A stretch of DNA of 64,000 nt from Synergistetes bacterium ADurb.Bin155 (GTDB lineage: Bacteria > Synergistota > Synergistia > Synergistales > Thermovirgaceae): positions 1 through 64,000 of the forward strand of contig MWDE01000002.1 in assembly GCA_002070395.1 (NCBI GenBank), written 5' to 3'. The notes under the pieces were generated by a model, which did not search any database, was not told the origin of the DNA, and worked only from the letters and a program-made list of their open reading frames with translations. The number at the start of each line of letters is the position of its first letter. Position 1 is the first letter of the stretch. Below, in pieces: positions 49,436 to 59,389 of the stretch. The position numbers and the translations under genes were made by a program.

Positions 49436-50197
49436 CTACCTTTTCAGGTTATCCCGTTTCCATCGGAAACAGGGCTCAACGGCCCCGTAAAAGGCGGTTT
49501 TATCGCCCTTCATGAAGGCCCAGTTCTGGTTGCCGTAGTCGAAGTGCCACCATTCATCGGGGAAGTTTGTGAACCCCGCTCCGGTCATGACGGCAAAAAG
49601 CATTCGACGGTTATCCAGGGCTTCGAGGGTCTTTCCCGCCATGGCTCCACCCGAGGATGCCCTTTTTTCATAATAGGCCGTCCCTGACCTGTCGGTGGTC
49701 TCGTCGAAATCCGAGCCCATGTAGAGGCAGAATCCCTTGTCGTCGGCTATGGTTAAATCGACGGCGCCACCCGTCAAGTGGGGTGAAGGCCGTTCGGGGT
49801 TGCTGGAAGGGGAAGCGATGAAACGGGCCGCCAGCGAGCCCAACTCCTCGTCGTTCTTGAAGGGCATGGCCTCCCGGAGTTCTTCACGATACTTGTTGAA
49901 AAGGGCGGTTTGCAACGGTGCCGGTCGCCACCCATCGAGGAGCACCAACCTGAACCCGGGCGGTAGCCGGCCGGCCGCTTCCAAAAGAAGTGTCAGGACT
50001 CCTCGCCGGACGTAACATTCCGGCAGGGCGCCTTCGATCCCGTTTAGGAAGTATATGGGGTGTACCAGCAGTTTGTCCGGAACGAGGCTGGCAGGGACCA
50101 GTTCCTCACGGCATTCCACTATTGGCAGCGCGAGGGCCTTTTCCCAGTTGAAAAGCCTTTCCTGTGTTACGGGGGCCCATTTCCTTTCTGTTACCAT
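49436..50197 (-). CDS. VanX/DdpX-type D-alanyl-D-alanine dipeptidase
   Basis: Zinc dipeptidase (M15D), 253 aa. It has the SxHxxGxAxD motif in SPHLTGGAVDL and the ExxH-type motif in DEWWHFDYG, both zinc and catalytic residues of VanX. No signal peptide, so cytoplasmic. ATG 50197 has GGAGG 8 nt upstream and lies 13 nt past the dctM stop, so it is the last gene of the dctP-dctQ-dctM operon. A vancomycin-resistance role is unlikely without vanH/vanA. Use of imported D-Ala-D-Ala or other dipeptides is more plausible. Confidence 0.88.
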   Translation of the reverse strand: MVTERKWAPVTQERLFNWEKALALPIVECREELVPASLVPDKLLVHPIYFLNGIEGALPECYVRRGVLTLLLEAAGRLPPGFRLVLLDGWRPAPLQTALFNKYREELREAMPFKNDEELGSLAARFIASPSSNPERPSPHLTGGAVDLTIADDKGFCLYMGSDFDETTDRSGTAYYEKRASSGGAMAGKTLEALDNRRMLFAVMTGAGFTNFPDEWWHFDYGNQNWAFMKGDKTAFYGAVEPCFRWKRDNLKR

Positions 50198-50210
50198 CTT
50201 GGTCACCTCC

Positions 50211-51500
50211 CTAGAGGTTCATCATCCCGGGGATCAGCGTGGTCAGAAAGGGAAAAGTGATAATTATCAACAGGACGATCAGCGACACGCCTATGAAGGG
50301 CCAGATGTGCATGAAAACGTCGGTCAACTTCACCTTACCGACGGCCGCTACGACGTAGTTGCAGGCGCCCATCGGCGGCGTGATGAGGGCGATGGTCACG
50401 TTCAGCGTCATGACCACGCCGAACTGGAAAGGGTCTATGCCGGCTTTCATGGCAATGGGCGTGAAAATGGGGGTAAGAAGGGTGAGGGTGGATACTTCCT
50501 CCATGAACATCCCTATGGGGAATATCACTCCGCTCAGTACCACCATAAGGAGCCAAGGCCTGTCAACAAGGCCGGCCTGGAGCAGTAGCGCGGCAAAGCG
50601 CTGGGGGACCTGTTCCCATTTCAGGAGCCAGCCGATGACCGTCGCGGCCCCCATGATGAGGAATATCGAACTGGTAAGGCGGACCGTTTCGTAAAGGGAT
50701 TCCCAAAGGACCTTCCTGGTCAGCTGCCTTGTATAAAAGACACCTGTTACAAGGCAATAGGCCACGGCCAGGGCCCCGGATTCCGTCGGTGTCACGACAC
50801 CCGAGATGATCCCCCCCAGGATGATGACGGGGGCGAGAAGGGCCACCGCCGACCTCGCCAGGATCTCCTTTTTTCGCTTGCGGACTTCGGCGAAGTCGGC
50901 GACGGGTACGTGGTATTTCATTGAATAAAAGTAGTTCATGATCATGAAGGCCCCTCCCAGGACCAGCCCTGGGAGTATCCCCGCCGCGAAAAGGCCCCCG
51001 ATGGACGTGTTGGTCATAGTGGCGTAAATGATCATGAAGATACTCGGGGGGATGATCGGTCCGATAAGGGCGCTGCCGGCGGTAAGACCTGCCGAATAGG
51101 AGGGGGAAAAGCCGTCCTTGATCATGGCTGGGATGAGGATCGAGCCGAGAGCCGACGCGTCGGCCACAGCGGACCCGTTCACACCCGCAAGGATGATGCT
51201 TCCCACCACGTTCACGTAACCGAGCCCGCCGCGTACGGAGCCGACCAGGAGCCGACAGAAGTCAAGCAGGCGGTCCGTCAGTCCCGATCGGTTCATAAGG
51301 ATCCCCGCCAGGATAAAAAAGGGAATGGCCATGAGGGTAAAGGAATCCATTCCGCCGAAGAACTGCTGGCTCATCACTCTCAGCAGGGAAAGGTCGCCCA
51401 GGAGCAATATCCCCACCAGGGCCGCCGAGAGCAGGGATAAAAAGAGGGGCAGCCCCAGGATCATGAGCACGAGGAAGGAAGCCAGCATGAAAAAGCCCAA
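50211..51500 (-). CDS. dctM: TRAP transporter large permease (DctM)
   Basis: Main transport subunit, 429 aa, about 12 transmembrane helices. Characteristic DctM segments: MAIPFFILAGILMNRSG, GSIILAGVNGSAVADASALGS, IGPIIPPSIFMIIYA and MEEVSTLTLLTPIFTP. TTG 51500 was chosen because GGAGG lies 7 nt upstream. It follows the dctQ stop after one base. It uses the Na+ or H+ gradient together with DctP and DctQ. Confidence 0.94.
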   Translation of the reverse strand: MGFFMLASFLVLMILGLPLFLSLLSAALVGILLLGDLSLLRVMSQQFFGGMDSFTLMAIPFFILAGILMNRSGLTDRLLDFCRLLVGSVRGGLGYVNVVGSIILAGVNGSAVADASALGSILIPAMIKDGFSPSYSAGLTAGSALIGPIIPPSIFMIIYATMTNTSIGGLFAAGILPGLVLGGAFMIMNYFYSMKYHVPVADFAEVRKRKKEILARSAVALLAPVIILGGIISGVVTPTESGALAVAYCLVTGVFYTRQLTRKVLWESLYETVRLTSSIFLIMGAATVIGWLLKWEQVPQRFAALLLQAGLVDRPWLLMVVLSGVIFPIGMFMEEVSTLTLLTPIFTPIAMKAGIDPFQFGVVMTLNVTIALITPPMGACNYVVAAVGKVKLTDVFMHIWPFIGVSLIVLLIIITFPFLTTLIPGMMNL

Positions 51501-51501
51501 A

Positions 51502-51996
51502 TCAGTTCCTCCTTCCCTCGAGGTGAAGGAGCACGCTCCCCGCCAGCAGCAGCGCAAACCCGGCGGGCAACGCCATCAGGGGTATGGTTTTCGGGATGTT
51601 AAGCGCCAGGGTCCTCATGTACCAGATCCTGGTCGCGTTCACCCAGCCAAGGTAGATCATCAGTAAAAGAATGGCCGACGAAAGGAAAAATTTACCCTGC
51701 TTTATCACTCGTTGAAGGAGGGGTGGGAGGTGGGGGACCACGAAATCCACCGCCATGTGGTCCCCCTTTATGGCAGCCCCGAGGGCGCCGAGCATTACGA
51801 TCCAGATCAAAGAAAAGCGTGCCACCTCCTCTGTCCAGACGAGGGAACTTTTAAGGACGTAGCGACAGAAGACCCCCAGGAGAATATCGCTCACGTTGAC
51901 GGCGAGCATGAAGCAGGCGGCCCACGCCCCGAAAAGTTCAAGCCTGGAAATCCATTTCGAAAGCCTTCTTCCCGAGTTGGCGCCGGAAAAGGTCAT
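51502..51996 (-). CDS. dctQ: TRAP transporter small permease (DctQ)
   Basis: A 164-aa protein with four transmembrane helices. The family motif is in the first half, FCRYVLKSSLVWTEEVARF, followed by GAAIKGDHMAVDF. It lies 6 nt after dctP and 1 nt before dctM. Confidence 0.92.
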   Translation of the reverse strand: MTFSGANSGRRLSKWISRLELFGAWAACFMLAVNVSDILLGVFCRYVLKSSLVWTEEVARFSLIWIVMLGALGAAIKGDHMAVDFVVPHLPPLLQRVIKQGKFFLSSAILLLMIYLGWVNATRIWYMRTLALNIPKTIPLMALPAGFALLLAGSVLLHLEGRRN

Positions 51997-52002
51997 CACG
52001 GG

Positions 52003-53043
52003 TTATTTCGCCTTTTCGTTGGCGTCTTTGGCGCATTGCAAGGCCAGGTCCAGCCAGTCCTGCCCCACCTTTGTCTTCAACCACTCCACGTAGGCAGGCT
52101 GCGCCGCCTTCCTAAAGGACTCCATCTCCTCATGGTCGGGCGCGTAGGCGGCCATCCCTTTTTCCACAAGGAATTCGATATCCTTCCTGTCGGCCTCCTG
52201 CATCGCCTGCCTGTTCAGCGAATTGGCTTTCTTCGCCGCTTCGGTGAAGGTCGACCTTTGTTCCGCCGTAAGCGAGTCGAGGAGGTCGCCGTTGATGACG
52301 AGGAACTGGTCTGAGTATTGGATGTTGGCGAGGGTAAGGTACTTCTGGACTTCGTAAAGGCTGCCCATCTTGATGTACATGGCGGGGTTCATCTGTCCAT
52401 CAACGACGCCCGACTTCAGGGCCATGTACAGTTCCGTCCAGGGGATGGGCGTGCCGCTGGCGCCGAAGGACTCGAAAAGGATGACCTGTCCCTCGTCCAT
52501 CCCGCGGAAGCGGAGACCCTTGAAGTCCTCGGCGGTCCTTATCTGCCTCTTGTCATTGGAGAAGGCCAGGAAACCTCCTTCCTCGACGGCTTCCAGCAGG
52601 TACGCGCCGGTACGCTGGTGGAACTCCTCCTTCGCCCTCTCCCAGTAGCGGCTCTCATCGAAGAAGAAGTGGGCCGCCTCGAAACTGTCGAACATGAAAG
52701 GCACCGCCGAAGCGTAGATCTCCGGGAATACCGGTGCCACGCCCGCGAAGGATGCCACGTTGATAATGGGCTGATTCATTCCCTTTTTCGCGAGAAGTTC
52801 CATTCGTTCCTCTTCGTTGCCGAGCTGGCTGTCGGGGAAGAGCTTGATCGCCACAGCCCCCCCGGTTCCTTCCTCGACCAGTTTCTTGAAGTTGACGGCG
52901 TAAAGGTGTACCGCGTTGTTCTCCTCGTCGGCCGGGCCGTTGTAGGACATCTTGACCTCCAGGACGGCCGGCGACGGCACTCCCGAAAAAGCGACGCAGA
53001 AGAGGGCGAGCAGGATCGCGGCGATCAACCTTCCAGGTCTCAT
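52003..53043 (-). CDS. dctP: TRAP transporter substrate-binding protein (DctP)
   Basis: A 346-aa periplasmic binding protein with a signal peptide (hydrophobic residues 8-24). Family landmarks: FPDSQLGNEEERMELL, the conserved Arg that binds the ligand carboxylate in FKGLRFRGMDEG, and SGVVDGQMNPAMYI. GGAGG precedes ATG 53043 by 9 nt. Linked to a dipeptidase gene, so the ligand may be a dipeptide or other carboxylate; this is inference. Confidence 0.92.
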   Translation of the reverse strand: MRPGRLIAAILLALFCVAFSGVPSPAVLEVKMSYNGPADEENNAVHLYAVNFKKLVEEGTGGAVAIKLFPDSQLGNEEERMELLAKKGMNQPIINVASFAGVAPVFPEIYASAVPFMFDSFEAAHFFFDESRYWERAKEEFHQRTGAYLLEAVEEGGFLAFSNDKRQIRTAEDFKGLRFRGMDEGQVILFESFGASGTPIPWTELYMALKSGVVDGQMNPAMYIKMGSLYEVQKYLTLANIQYSDQFLVINGDLLDSLTAEQRSTFTEAAKKANSLNRQAMQEADRKDIEFLVEKGMAAYAPDHEEMESFRKAAQPAYVEWLKTKVGQDWLDLALQCAKDANEKAK

Positions 53044-56401: not shown

Positions 56402-58366
56402 TCAGCTCGCCGTAACTGTTCTTCGGGCGTTGAGGATCTTCAGGGCGATCACCGACGCGCCGATGAAAAGGGCGGCCATCGCCTTTACGCGGTAATCGGG
56501 CAGGAAGGCGACGATGGCGGCGACAAAAAGGACCACCCTCACGGGGTAGCTCAGCCTTTCAAACATCCACCCCTGCAAAGCCGACGCCAGGCTGAAGATA
56601 CTGGCCAGGGAGGCCACGACAATGATGGCAAGGGGGACCCAGGAAAAATTCTCCAGGAGTATCACCGGGTTATAGATGAAAGAGTAGGGTATAAGGTAGG
56701 CAACGAGGGCTATCCTGGTCGCCATGAAACCCGTCTGGCTGGGGTTGCCTCCGGCTATCCCGGCGCCGGTGAACGAAGCGAGGCAGACCGGCGGGGTCAG
56801 GTCGGCCATGATGCCGAAGTAGAAGACGAAAAGATGGGCAGCCAGGGGCAGGACCCCCATCTTGACCAGCGCGGGGGCGATCATCGTGCTCGTCACGATG
56901 TAGTTAGCCGTCGTGGGCAGCCCCATCCCCAGCACCAGGCAGGCCACCATGGAAAGAAGCAGCGTCGGGAACAACAACCCCCTCGAGATGTCGATAATGT
57001 TGTTGGAGATCGTCAATCCCAACGCCGTAAGTGATGAGGTCCCCACGATGAAACCCACCAGCGCGCAGGCGAGGGCCACGCCAAGGGCGCACCGGGCCCC
57101 CTCTTCGAGGGCGTCGCAGATGTCCCTGATCCCCATCCGTGTGTGCTTGCGGAGGAGACTCACCCCCACGACGCTGACGATCCCCCAGAAAGCCGCCGCG
57201 AGGGGGGTATACCTGTTCAGGAGCATGCCGATAATGACCACCAGGGGAACCATGAGGTGGCCGTCCTTTTTCATGACCTGCTTCAGCGAGGGTAGGAGAT
57301 CCTTGGGCAGGCCCCTGAGGTCCCTCTGACGGGCTCTCAAGTGGACGGCGAAGTAGAGGGCGATGTAGTAGAGCAAGGCCGGTATCGCGGCCGCGGCGGC
57401 TATTCTCAGGTAAGAGATCCCCAGGAATTCGCTCATGATGAAAGCACCGGCTCCCATGATGGGTGGCATGAACTGGCCCCCGGTGGAGGCGCTGGCCTCA
57501 ACGGCACCGGCGAATTCAGGCTTGTAGCCCACTTTTTTCATGAGAGGAATAGTGAAGGCCCCAGTGGTGGCCACGTTGGCCACGGAGGAACCACTGATGG
57601 TCCCCAACAGGCCCGAGGCGACTATGGCGACCTTCGCGGGGCCGCCGGGTGAATGACCCGCCATGGCTAAGGCGAGTTCGTTGAAGAACCTGGCCCCCCC
57701 GCTCTTCCCAAGAAAGGCCCCAAAAAGGATGAACAAGAATACGAAAGTACTGGAGACCCCGAGGGCCACGCCGAAAATTCCCTCCTGGGTCAGGTACATG
57801 TGCTGGATGATCCGGTTGATCGAGTAACCCCTGTGCATGAACATGAAGGGCATGAAGCGGCCGAAGTAGCAGTAAAGGAGGAAAAAGACGCTCAGGAAGG
57901 GAAGCACCTTCCCGGCAACCCTTCTCCCGGCTTCCAGGACCATCACAAAGGTGAGTATGCCAAGCCAGACCTCGTGGGGTTGAACCTGGGCTCCCCTTCG
58001 GGCGATCTCGTTGAAGAAGAATATTATGTACCCCGTCCCCACACCGGCCACCGCCGCCAGGACCCAGTCAAACCAGGGGATCTTGGTCTTGTCCTCGCCC
58101 TCTCTGCCCGGGTAGAGCAGAAACACGGCCACGATGGCGAAGGTGAGGTGGACGGCGCGATGGATCGATGTGGGCAAAAGTCCGATCCCTGCGGTATAGA
58201 GGTGGAAAAGGGACATGGCGATCAACCAGGCGGACACGAACATCTTCGGGAAACCTACGGGCCGACGAAAGCGGCTCTCGATGTCGTACTTCTCGACTAT
58301 GCTCTGGAGGTCTTCCTCCTCGATCTGCTGCACTAGCGGTGTTTTGACGGTTTCGTCCTTACCCAT
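56402..58366 (-). CDS. TRAP transporter fused permease (4TM/12TM)
   Basis: A 654-aa fused DctQM-type permease of the TAXI-TRAP class with about 16-18 hydrophobic segments. Signature parts are GAFLGKSGGARFFNELALA, GTISGSSVANVATTGAFTIP, ASTGGQFMPPIMGAGAFIM and GMGLPTTANYIVTSTM. ATG 58366 is favoured; ATG 58378 is also possible and neither has a strong Shine-Dalgarno. It works with the TAXI binding protein encoded just upstream. Ligand likely a carboxylate or amino acid. Confidence 0.93.
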   Translation of the reverse strand: MGKDETVKTPLVQQIEEEDLQSIVEKYDIESRFRRPVGFPKMFVSAWLIAMSLFHLYTAGIGLLPTSIHRAVHLTFAIVAVFLLYPGREGEDKTKIPWFDWVLAAVAGVGTGYIIFFFNEIARRGAQVQPHEVWLGILTFVMVLEAGRRVAGKVLPFLSVFFLLYCYFGRFMPFMFMHRGYSINRIIQHMYLTQEGIFGVALGVSSTFVFLFILFGAFLGKSGGARFFNELALAMAGHSPGGPAKVAIVASGLLGTISGSSVANVATTGAFTIPLMKKVGYKPEFAGAVEASASTGGQFMPPIMGAGAFIMSEFLGISYLRIAAAAAIPALLYYIALYFAVHLRARQRDLRGLPKDLLPSLKQVMKKDGHLMVPLVVIIGMLLNRYTPLAAAFWGIVSVVGVSLLRKHTRMGIRDICDALEEGARCALGVALACALVGFIVGTSSLTALGLTISNNIIDISRGLLFPTLLLSMVACLVLGMGLPTTANYIVTSTMIAPALVKMGVLPLAAHLFVFYFGIMADLTPPVCLASFTGAGIAGGNPSQTGFMATRIALVAYLIPYSFIYNPVILLENFSWVPLAIIVVASLASIFSLASALQGWMFERLSYPVRVVLFVAAIVAFLPDYRVKAMAALFIGASVIALKILNARRTVTAS

Positions 58367-58447
58367 GTCAAACCCCATTCCCGAGAGGGCCCGGGCCGCC
58401 AATCGCTCCGACCCGGGCCCTGAAAGATTTTTTGATAATTGAGGACC

Positions 58448-59389
58448 TTACATTACCTCGTCGTAGTACCTCCTGGCTCCGTAGTGCATCGGGATCAGTA
58501 TGTACTGGATGTTTTCGGGTTTCATGGTCTCCATCATGGCACGAACGGCGAGAAGGTCATCCTTGTGCTCGAAGAGAGCCTTGGTCATCCGGTAGGCCAG
58601 GTCGCCATCGACATCCTTGTTGATGGCCAGGATATTCCAGCTGGCGTAGGTCTTGACCTCGTTGGGCTGGTTTGAGTAGAAATTGGCTGGGATGGTGAAG
58701 GGCACCCAGTAGGGGGTCTCGGCAATGACCTTGTCCCGGATGTTGTCGGGGACATCGATGAATTCCACTACGCCCAGGGTGGCGGCCTCGACCACGCCGG
58801 CCATCCCGAGGGAACCCACCATCACTGCTGCGTCGATCCGCTTATCGCTGAAGGCGGTCGCCGTATCGCCTACGCCGAGGTTCTCGGCCTGGATATCCTT
58901 GTCAGGGTCGATCCCCGCCAGCCTGAGCAGTTGACGGGCCGTGACTTCGGTTCCGCTAGCGACGGCCCCGATGGAGATCCTTTTGCCCTTGAAGTCGTGC
59001 AGGGTCTTGATGCCGCTTCCCTTGGCTATCATCAGTTGGGTCGGCTCGGGATAAAGGGGAACAAGGGCCCTGATGTAGTCCTGGGGGTTGCCCTCGAATT
59101 TATCCTTCCCCAGGTAGGCGTAGTAATAAAGGCCGTCCATGAAGCCTGTCTCGGCCTCGCCACTGCCCATCAGCTGGATGTTGTTGACGGTGCCGCCGGT
59201 GGACTGGGCGCTGGCCTTGATGCCCTCGATATTATCATTCCAGATCTTGGCCATCGCCGCGCCGAGAGGATAGTAAGCACCTCCCGTGCTTCCCGTGGCG
59301 ATGTTGATGAACGTCACGGCCGAAGCGGCTCCCGCCACAAGGCCCGCCATCACCATCGCAAGGACAAGGATCCTCAAACCTCTTCTCAT
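58448..59389 (-). CDS. TAXI-family TRAP substrate-binding protein
   Basis: A 313-aa periplasmic binding protein with a signal peptide (residues 1-24). The family signature is INIATGSTGGAYYPLGAAMA. Other blocks: AQSTGGTVNNIQLM and KRISIGAVASGTEVTA. GGAGG precedes ATG 59389 by 10 nt. It pairs with the fused permease that follows; no regulator is adjacent. Confidence 0.94.
   Translation of the reverse strand: MRRGLRILVLAMVMAGLVAGAASAVTFINIATGSTGGAYYPLGAAMAKIWNDNIEGIKASAQSTGGTVNNIQLMGSGEAETGFMDGLYYYAYLGKDKFEGNPQDYIRALVPLYPEPTQLMIAKGSGIKTLHDFKGKRISIGAVASGTEVTARQLLRLAGIDPDKDIQAENLGVGDTATAFSDKRIDAAVMVGSLGMAGVVEAATLGVVEFIDVPDNIRDKVIAETPYWVPFTIPANFYSNQPNEVKTYASWNILAINKDVDGDLAYRMTKALFEHKDDLLAVRAMMETMKPENIQYILIPMHYGARRYYDEVM

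Follow-up and report, generated by a model that had tools for sequence, protein, structure and literature searches.

The ddpXABCDF operon of Escherichia coli encodes, according to PMC8743547, a dipeptidase together with a transporter for D-alanyl-D-alanine (D-Ala-D-Ala). Tripartite ATP-independent periplasmic (TRAP) transporters have predominantly carboxylate-containing substrates (PMC4646407), and the review by Rosa et al. 2018 (PMC5812351) names 'cell-wall constituents' among the new TRAP ligands of the Vetting et al. 2015 study. The subject of this work is an operon in a 64,000-nucleotide stretch of DNA from Synergistetes bacterium ADurb.Bin155 (contig MWDE01000002.1, positions 1 to 64,000; hereafter the window), in which the genes of a TRAP transporter are followed by a gene for a VanX-type dipeptidase. 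Two TRAP solute-binding proteins of solved structure, both targets of the Enzyme Function Initiative (EFI), form the point of comparison for its binding protein: Csal_0660 of Chromohalobacter salexigens (4N8G) and Dde_1548 of Desulfovibrio alaskensis (4NGU). Their crystals are reported to hold bound D-Ala-D-Ala, and Vetting et al. 2015 reportedly described growth on D-Ala-D-Ala as the sole carbon source with such a TRAP system.

We propose that the operon in the window very probably serves the uptake and breakdown of D-Ala-D-Ala, by means of an importer and a catabolic enzyme. Its four genes lie head to tail on the minus strand. The solute-binding protein DctP (346 amino acids) is encoded at 52003..53043 (ATG at 53043, stop at 52005-52003; PF03480, 245.8 bits against a Pfam cut-off of 23.4), the small membrane subunit DctQ (165 amino acids from GTG) at 51502..51999 (GTG at 51999 or ATG at 51996, stop at 51504-51502; PF04290, 87.2 against 28.3 bits), and the large membrane subunit DctM (429 amino acids from TTG) at 50211..51500 (TTG at 51500, stop at 50213-50211; PF06808, 378 against 23.8 bits, and TIGR00786, 408 bits). 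They are followed by a predicted M15D (VanX/DdpX-like) zinc D,D-dipeptidase at 49436..50197 (starting with the ATG at 50197, which is preceded by GGAGGTGA, or with the GTG at 50206, and ending with the stop at 49438-49436), which matches PF01427 (Peptidase_M15) with 72.3 bits, above the cut-off of 27. The intergenic gaps are 3 (or 6) nucleotides between dctP and dctQ, 1 between dctQ and dctM, and 13 (or 4) between dctM and the dipeptidase gene, the alternative figures resulting from the use of other start codons. Thus, all three transporter families are found above their cut-offs in a single gene row with gaps of 1-6 nucleotides, and the order dctP-dctQ-dctM-vanX-like, on one strand and with spacings of 1-13 nucleotides, which had been read from the sequence alone in an earlier note (the original prediction), is confirmed by the coordinates and the Pfam matches.

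DctP begins with a hydrophobic, signal-like stretch. Its closest chains in the PDB by sequence are 4n8g (E-value 6.2e-116) and 4ngu (1.5e-112), followed at a distance by 4p47 (4.3e-35), and the identity of the window protein to 4N8G and 4NGU amounts to 54.5% and 54.4%, respectively. A structure model of DctP built from 50 sequences (predicted local distance difference test, pLDDT, 93.9) superimposes on 4NGU with a Z-score of 48.6 (root-mean-square deviation, rmsd, 1.1; 317 residues aligned) and on 4N8G with a Z-score of 46.8 (rmsd 1.2; 310 residues aligned), while many other TRAP binders score 38.1 or less. All 50 positions that are invariant across a hand-picked alignment of 50 of the 80 possible DctP rows are identical in both the 4N8G and the 4NGU proteins, with the reservation that the relatives were collected via the stretches EEGGFLAF and [LM]TLANIQY, so that part of this invariance is due to selection. 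R180, an arginine in all 50 DctPs, aligns with the arginine in the LKLRVP stretch of the sialic acid binder SiaP (Arg-147). In that binder the arginine holds the carboxylate of the ligand (PMC4646407). The window protein is hence close to the 4N8G/4NGU pair in sequence, has a nearly identical fold and keeps the group residues, and we regard it as a predicted D-Ala-D-Ala binder. It differs from both in coming from another phylum and in carrying four extra residues after the MELL/MEQV stretch.

The enzyme at the end of the operon has the VanX fold. Its structure model, built from 49 sequences (pLDDT 93.3), matches VanX (1r44) with a Z-score of 18.3 (rmsd 3.8, 182 residues aligned, 22% identity), and the next matches, VanY, VanXY and hedgehog-type domains, reach 10.8 or lower. 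Residues R71, H116, D123, E181 and H184 of VanX, its zinc ligands and catalytic residues, correspond to R94, H143, D150, E218 and H221 of the window dipeptidase, and each is kept in all 49 rows of an alignment hand-picked from 56 possible ones. It thus shares with VanX of vancomycin resistance (1R44) the fold and the five catalytic positions, but is longer at the N terminus, only 22% identical, and without vanH or vanA among the scanned neighbours. The best 13-residue mean of N-terminal hydropathy is 1.0, compared to 3.1 for DctP; since no strongly hydrophobic N-terminal stretch is present, the dipeptidase is probably cytoplasmic and would act after import.

A scan of contigs with the DctP alignment, from which the best 80 of 202 relatives were retained, yielded 71 loci with enough sequence after dctM to judge what follows; the nearest named relatives carry the title Synergistaceae. 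Nine loci were set aside, because no dctM was found (L064, L076, L083, L118), because the sequence is cut soon after or inside dctM (L106, L109, L123; the end of L109 resembles, by eye, the start of the dipeptidase), or because only a short remainder follows it (L084, 711 bases; L093, 867 bases). A close homologue of the dipeptidase lies directly after dctM in 55 of the 71 loci, and an enzyme of the VanX-proper type in one more, giving 56 in total. In the 55 loci, the dipeptidase starts between approximately 34 bases before and 79 bases after the dctM stop, where the start codons were chosen by a rule that allows at most 40 bases upstream of that stop, so that overlaps are floored near -34. 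According to the record titles, these close matches comprise 31 Gammaproteobacteria, 16 Synergistota, 4 Halanaerobiales, 3 Desulfobacterota and 1 Sediminispirochaeta (Spirochaetota), although many of the loci share a genus with others and a large number stem from metagenome bins, which makes both the titles and the independence of the cases uncertain. The adjacency of these genes is more than chance, given the 55 related loci and the single VanX-proper-type case. The original prediction named the absence of conserved linkage in related genomes as an outcome that would speak against it; the linkage is conserved in 56 of the 71 loci, though 15 are without the enzyme.

The linkage was followed into two families with close relatives of the crystallized proteins. 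In the Halomonas-type family (L130, uncultured Halomonas), 65 of 151 genomes have a DctP that matches the 4N8G chain with an E-value of at most 1e-80, and among 20 of these 65 places, chosen down the ranking, the four-gene row is present in all 20; one of the DctPs is 99% identical to the 4N8G chain and sits in the same dctP-dctQ-dctM-vanX order, and in two places (L148, L152) the dctP frame contains an internal stop. In the Desulfovibrio-type family (L139, uncultured Desulfovibrio), such a DctP occurs in 11 of 149 genomes and the full row in 10 of these 11. The genome of Dde_1548 was not found among the 149, the best relative being 77% identical. One genome of this family (G323) has dctP followed by the dipeptidase with neither dctQ nor dctM between them (L176:5139-7013), and the dctM homologues that it has at other places share only 31-37% identity, i.e. 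a binding protein and an enzyme without a permease of their own.

As a control, orthologous and paralogous DctPs were compared in the genome of the window and those of 60 relatives: of the 30 orthologues, 17 have a dipeptidase match no more than 5 kb away, versus none of the 28 paralogues, which were counted only down to an E-value of 1e-40, and two orthologue pieces (G026:C247 and the second G032 piece) were dropped. One paralogue (G017:C10) is located about 6.7 kb from a dipeptidase match, and 11 of the 28 dipeptidase matches are not near an orthologous DctP, most of these being weak or fragments. The genome sets of this control, the 80-locus scan and the Halomonas-type search overlap (for example, L062 is also G001). 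DctP identity and dipeptidase identity are correlated (r 0.861 over 35 rows; none of 2000 shuffles gave as high a value), as common descent alone would also produce.

The 15 assessable loci with dctPQM and no such enzyme behind it are L063, L071, L075, L077, L078, L080, L081, L082, L090, L100, L102, L105, L114, L119 and L125. Loci titled Acetomicrobium fall on both sides, L073 with the enzyme, L075 (Acetomicrobium hydrogeniformans ATCC BAA-1850) and L078 without it. In L079, the slot after dctM (L079:5503-6177) is occupied by a protein that aligns over its length with VanX 1r44 (E-value 2.6e-57) and scores 231.4 bits with the VanX model NF033115, below the cut-off of 320; this looks like a replacement of the diverged dipeptidase by a VanX-proper-type enzyme within the same operon. 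A search for further replacements covered 10 neighbouring open reading frames (ORFs) of six loci with Pfam and seven ORFs of seven loci, including the non-assessable L093, with NCBIfam, and apart from L079 no clear dipeptidase was found among them. With NCBIfam, the reverse-strand gene of L077 resembles alanine dehydrogenase (173 of 409 bits), the ORFs of L119 and L071 belong to unrelated families, and those of L080 and L093 have no match.

Other features were noted in several loci without the dipeptidase. Behind dctM, and in the same orientation, three Fretibacterium-titled loci have an amidohydrolase-like ORF (L105:9055-10224 and its counterparts of similar kind in L114 and L125); the best match of the L105 protein is an Xaa-Pro dipeptidase model (66 of 500 bits). 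Upstream of dctP in L048, a divergent gene for an NlpC/P60 endopeptidase with SH3 domains (L048:4349-5731) precedes dctPQM without a dipeptidase (L048:6208-9029), and L049 and L050 have ORFs of similar size at the corresponding position. In L040, L051, L052 and L060, also without a dipeptidase, the dctQ and dctM matches lie in one frame of 531-651 amino acids, apparently a permease in which Q and M are fused.

Certain observations weigh against the assignment to D-Ala-D-Ala. The dipeptidase falls below the curated NCBIfam cut-offs both for VanX (NF033115, 34.6 of 320 bits) and for DdpX (NF007557, 68.5 of 176 bits), so that it represents a separate subfamily rather than VanX or DdpX proper, and the M15 family includes enzymes acting on other substrates. 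The 15 loci without the enzyme, together with genomes among them that have no match anywhere with the window dipeptidase as the query (G004, G027, G034, G046), indicate that the transporter also exists in the absence of this enzyme. To these points should be added the part of the DctP invariance that stems from the way in which the relatives were gathered. It is conceivable, if on balance unlikely, that the importer takes a different or wider range of D-configured or wall-derived dipeptides (e.g. D-Ala-Gly or D-Ala-D-Ser), D-Ala-D-Ala being just one of its ligands: the divergence of the dipeptidase from VanX and DdpX means that its specificity may differ, and its absence from 15 of the 71 loci fits such a range. 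However, the match of all 50 invariant DctP positions to 4N8G and 4NGU and the VanX-proper-type enzyme that L079 has at this position argue for the narrower assignment.

The same 15 loci, and the predominance of carboxylate-containing TRAP substrates noted in PMC4646407, could be taken to mean that the transporter serves an ordinary carboxylate and that the dipeptidase is a passenger gene, yet D-Ala-D-Ala itself has a carboxylate and the arginine is kept; with the linkage in 56 of the 71 loci, under titles from several phyla, and no dipeptidase match within 5 kb of any of the 28 paralogues, we consider a passenger role very unlikely. A role in glycopeptide resistance, as in vanHAX, is suggested by the VanX fold and has in our view the slightest chance of all: neither a vanH dehydrogenase nor a vanA ligase stands beside the dipeptidase gene among the scanned neighbours (VanH was not searched genome-wide), the Dala_Dala_lig_C matches fall on C4 and C18, contigs other than C2, and resistance needs no dedicated importer beside the enzyme. 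We therefore rejected it on account of the missing vanHA and the location of the ligase-type matches. Import of D-Ala-D-Ala or a related dipeptide for use, as put forward in the original prediction, is very probably right: it is supported by the nearest solved relatives, the invariant residues, the conserved operon, the VanX fold with its catalytic residues, and the enzyme in the slot of L079.

What we observed directly comprises the gene order, the families, the catalytic residues, the fold, the linkage and the invariant positions shared with 4N8G and 4NGU, to which we add by inference the ligand, the coupling ion, the cellular place of the enzyme and the fate of D-Ala. DctP would bind D-Ala-D-Ala in the periplasm, with R180 holding its carboxylate, and DctQM would carry the dipeptide over the inner membrane with an ion gradient as the driver, like other TRAP transporters. 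The putatively cytoplasmic zinc dipeptidase would then cleave it into two molecules of D-Ala, which may be used in building the wall of the cell itself or, once racemised to L-Ala, serve as a source of carbon and nitrogen. The genome contains four Ala_racemase_N matches, and one or more of these proteins could catalyze the conversion. The dipeptide itself may originate from peptidoglycan turnover or from neighbouring cells that have lysed. With the ddpXABCDF operon of E. coli the locus has in common that a single operon combines a transporter with an M15D dipeptidase, and that the proposed substrate is the same. It differs in that the adjoining transporter is DctPQM, a TRAP secondary transporter, and not an ATP-binding cassette (ABC) dipeptide permease, that the dipeptidase gene is last and not first, and that its product remains below the DdpX cut-off.

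The original prediction also remarked that its author knew of no TRAP system described for this; the remark fails if Vetting et al. 2015 did describe one. A literature search, mostly without subscription papers and thus saying little about what is in print, returned no recognisable paper on a D-Ala-D-Ala TRAP system: in the accessible text of PMC11762602 D-Ala-D-Ala is named only as part of a wall precursor, and the accessible parts of PMC8276074, PMC11668362 and PMC5788505 contain no mention of 'D-Ala'. This kind of system appears to be already known, the window operon being a further case of it. In the accessible literature, which does not include Vetting et al. 2015, we saw no account of how widely the linkage extends, of a VanX-proper-type enzyme as in L079, or of loci that have the transporter and no enzyme.

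The surroundings of the operon, in a genome of 1.9 Mb on 80 contigs, comprise panB, upstream of dctP and divergent, and a MATE efflux gene downstream of the dipeptidase on the same strand; a matE match occurs in 3 of 30 relatives' loci (L033, L034, L039), in none of them directly behind the dipeptidase. The scanned neighbours also include OpuAC, prismane, UDG-like, EamA-like and TAXI-TRAP genes. In another genome (G066), genes for a class III aminotransferase and an HglS-type 2-oxoadipate dioxygenase (L144:811-3464) run convergent with the operon and are suggestive of lysine breakdown. A promoter and terminator scan gave no signal above chance (2 promoter-like sites versus 1.4 expected, 4 terminator-like sites versus 5.2 expected). 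A second, unrelated TRAP system, with a TAXI-type binding protein and a fused permease (TIGR02122, TIGR02123), is present at 56402-59389 of the window.

It is tempting, if rather speculative, to consider the TRAP-VanX operon, and not the ABC system, as a principal and ancient way for several phyla to scavenge D-Ala-D-Ala, which would make the free dipeptide a widespread nutrient of anaerobic and marine habitats; on this tentative and somewhat doubtful scenario, the dipeptidase would be exchangeable, as in L079, and lineages without it, such as that of L075 (A. hydrogeniformans ATCC BAA-1850), would split the dipeptide with a novel enzyme. The findings point in any case to lineages that possess the importer without this dipeptidase. 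Transporters of this family usually carry the label 'dicarboxylate'; the assignment would provide one of them with a specific substrate, both in Synergistota and in relatives belonging to several further groups, and the four genes are kept together as a unit across bacteria that are only distantly related. For anaerobic and marine communities, this suggests that it may pay a cell to have an importer dedicated to D-Ala-D-Ala, whether the dipeptide comes from its own wall or from that of other bacteria.

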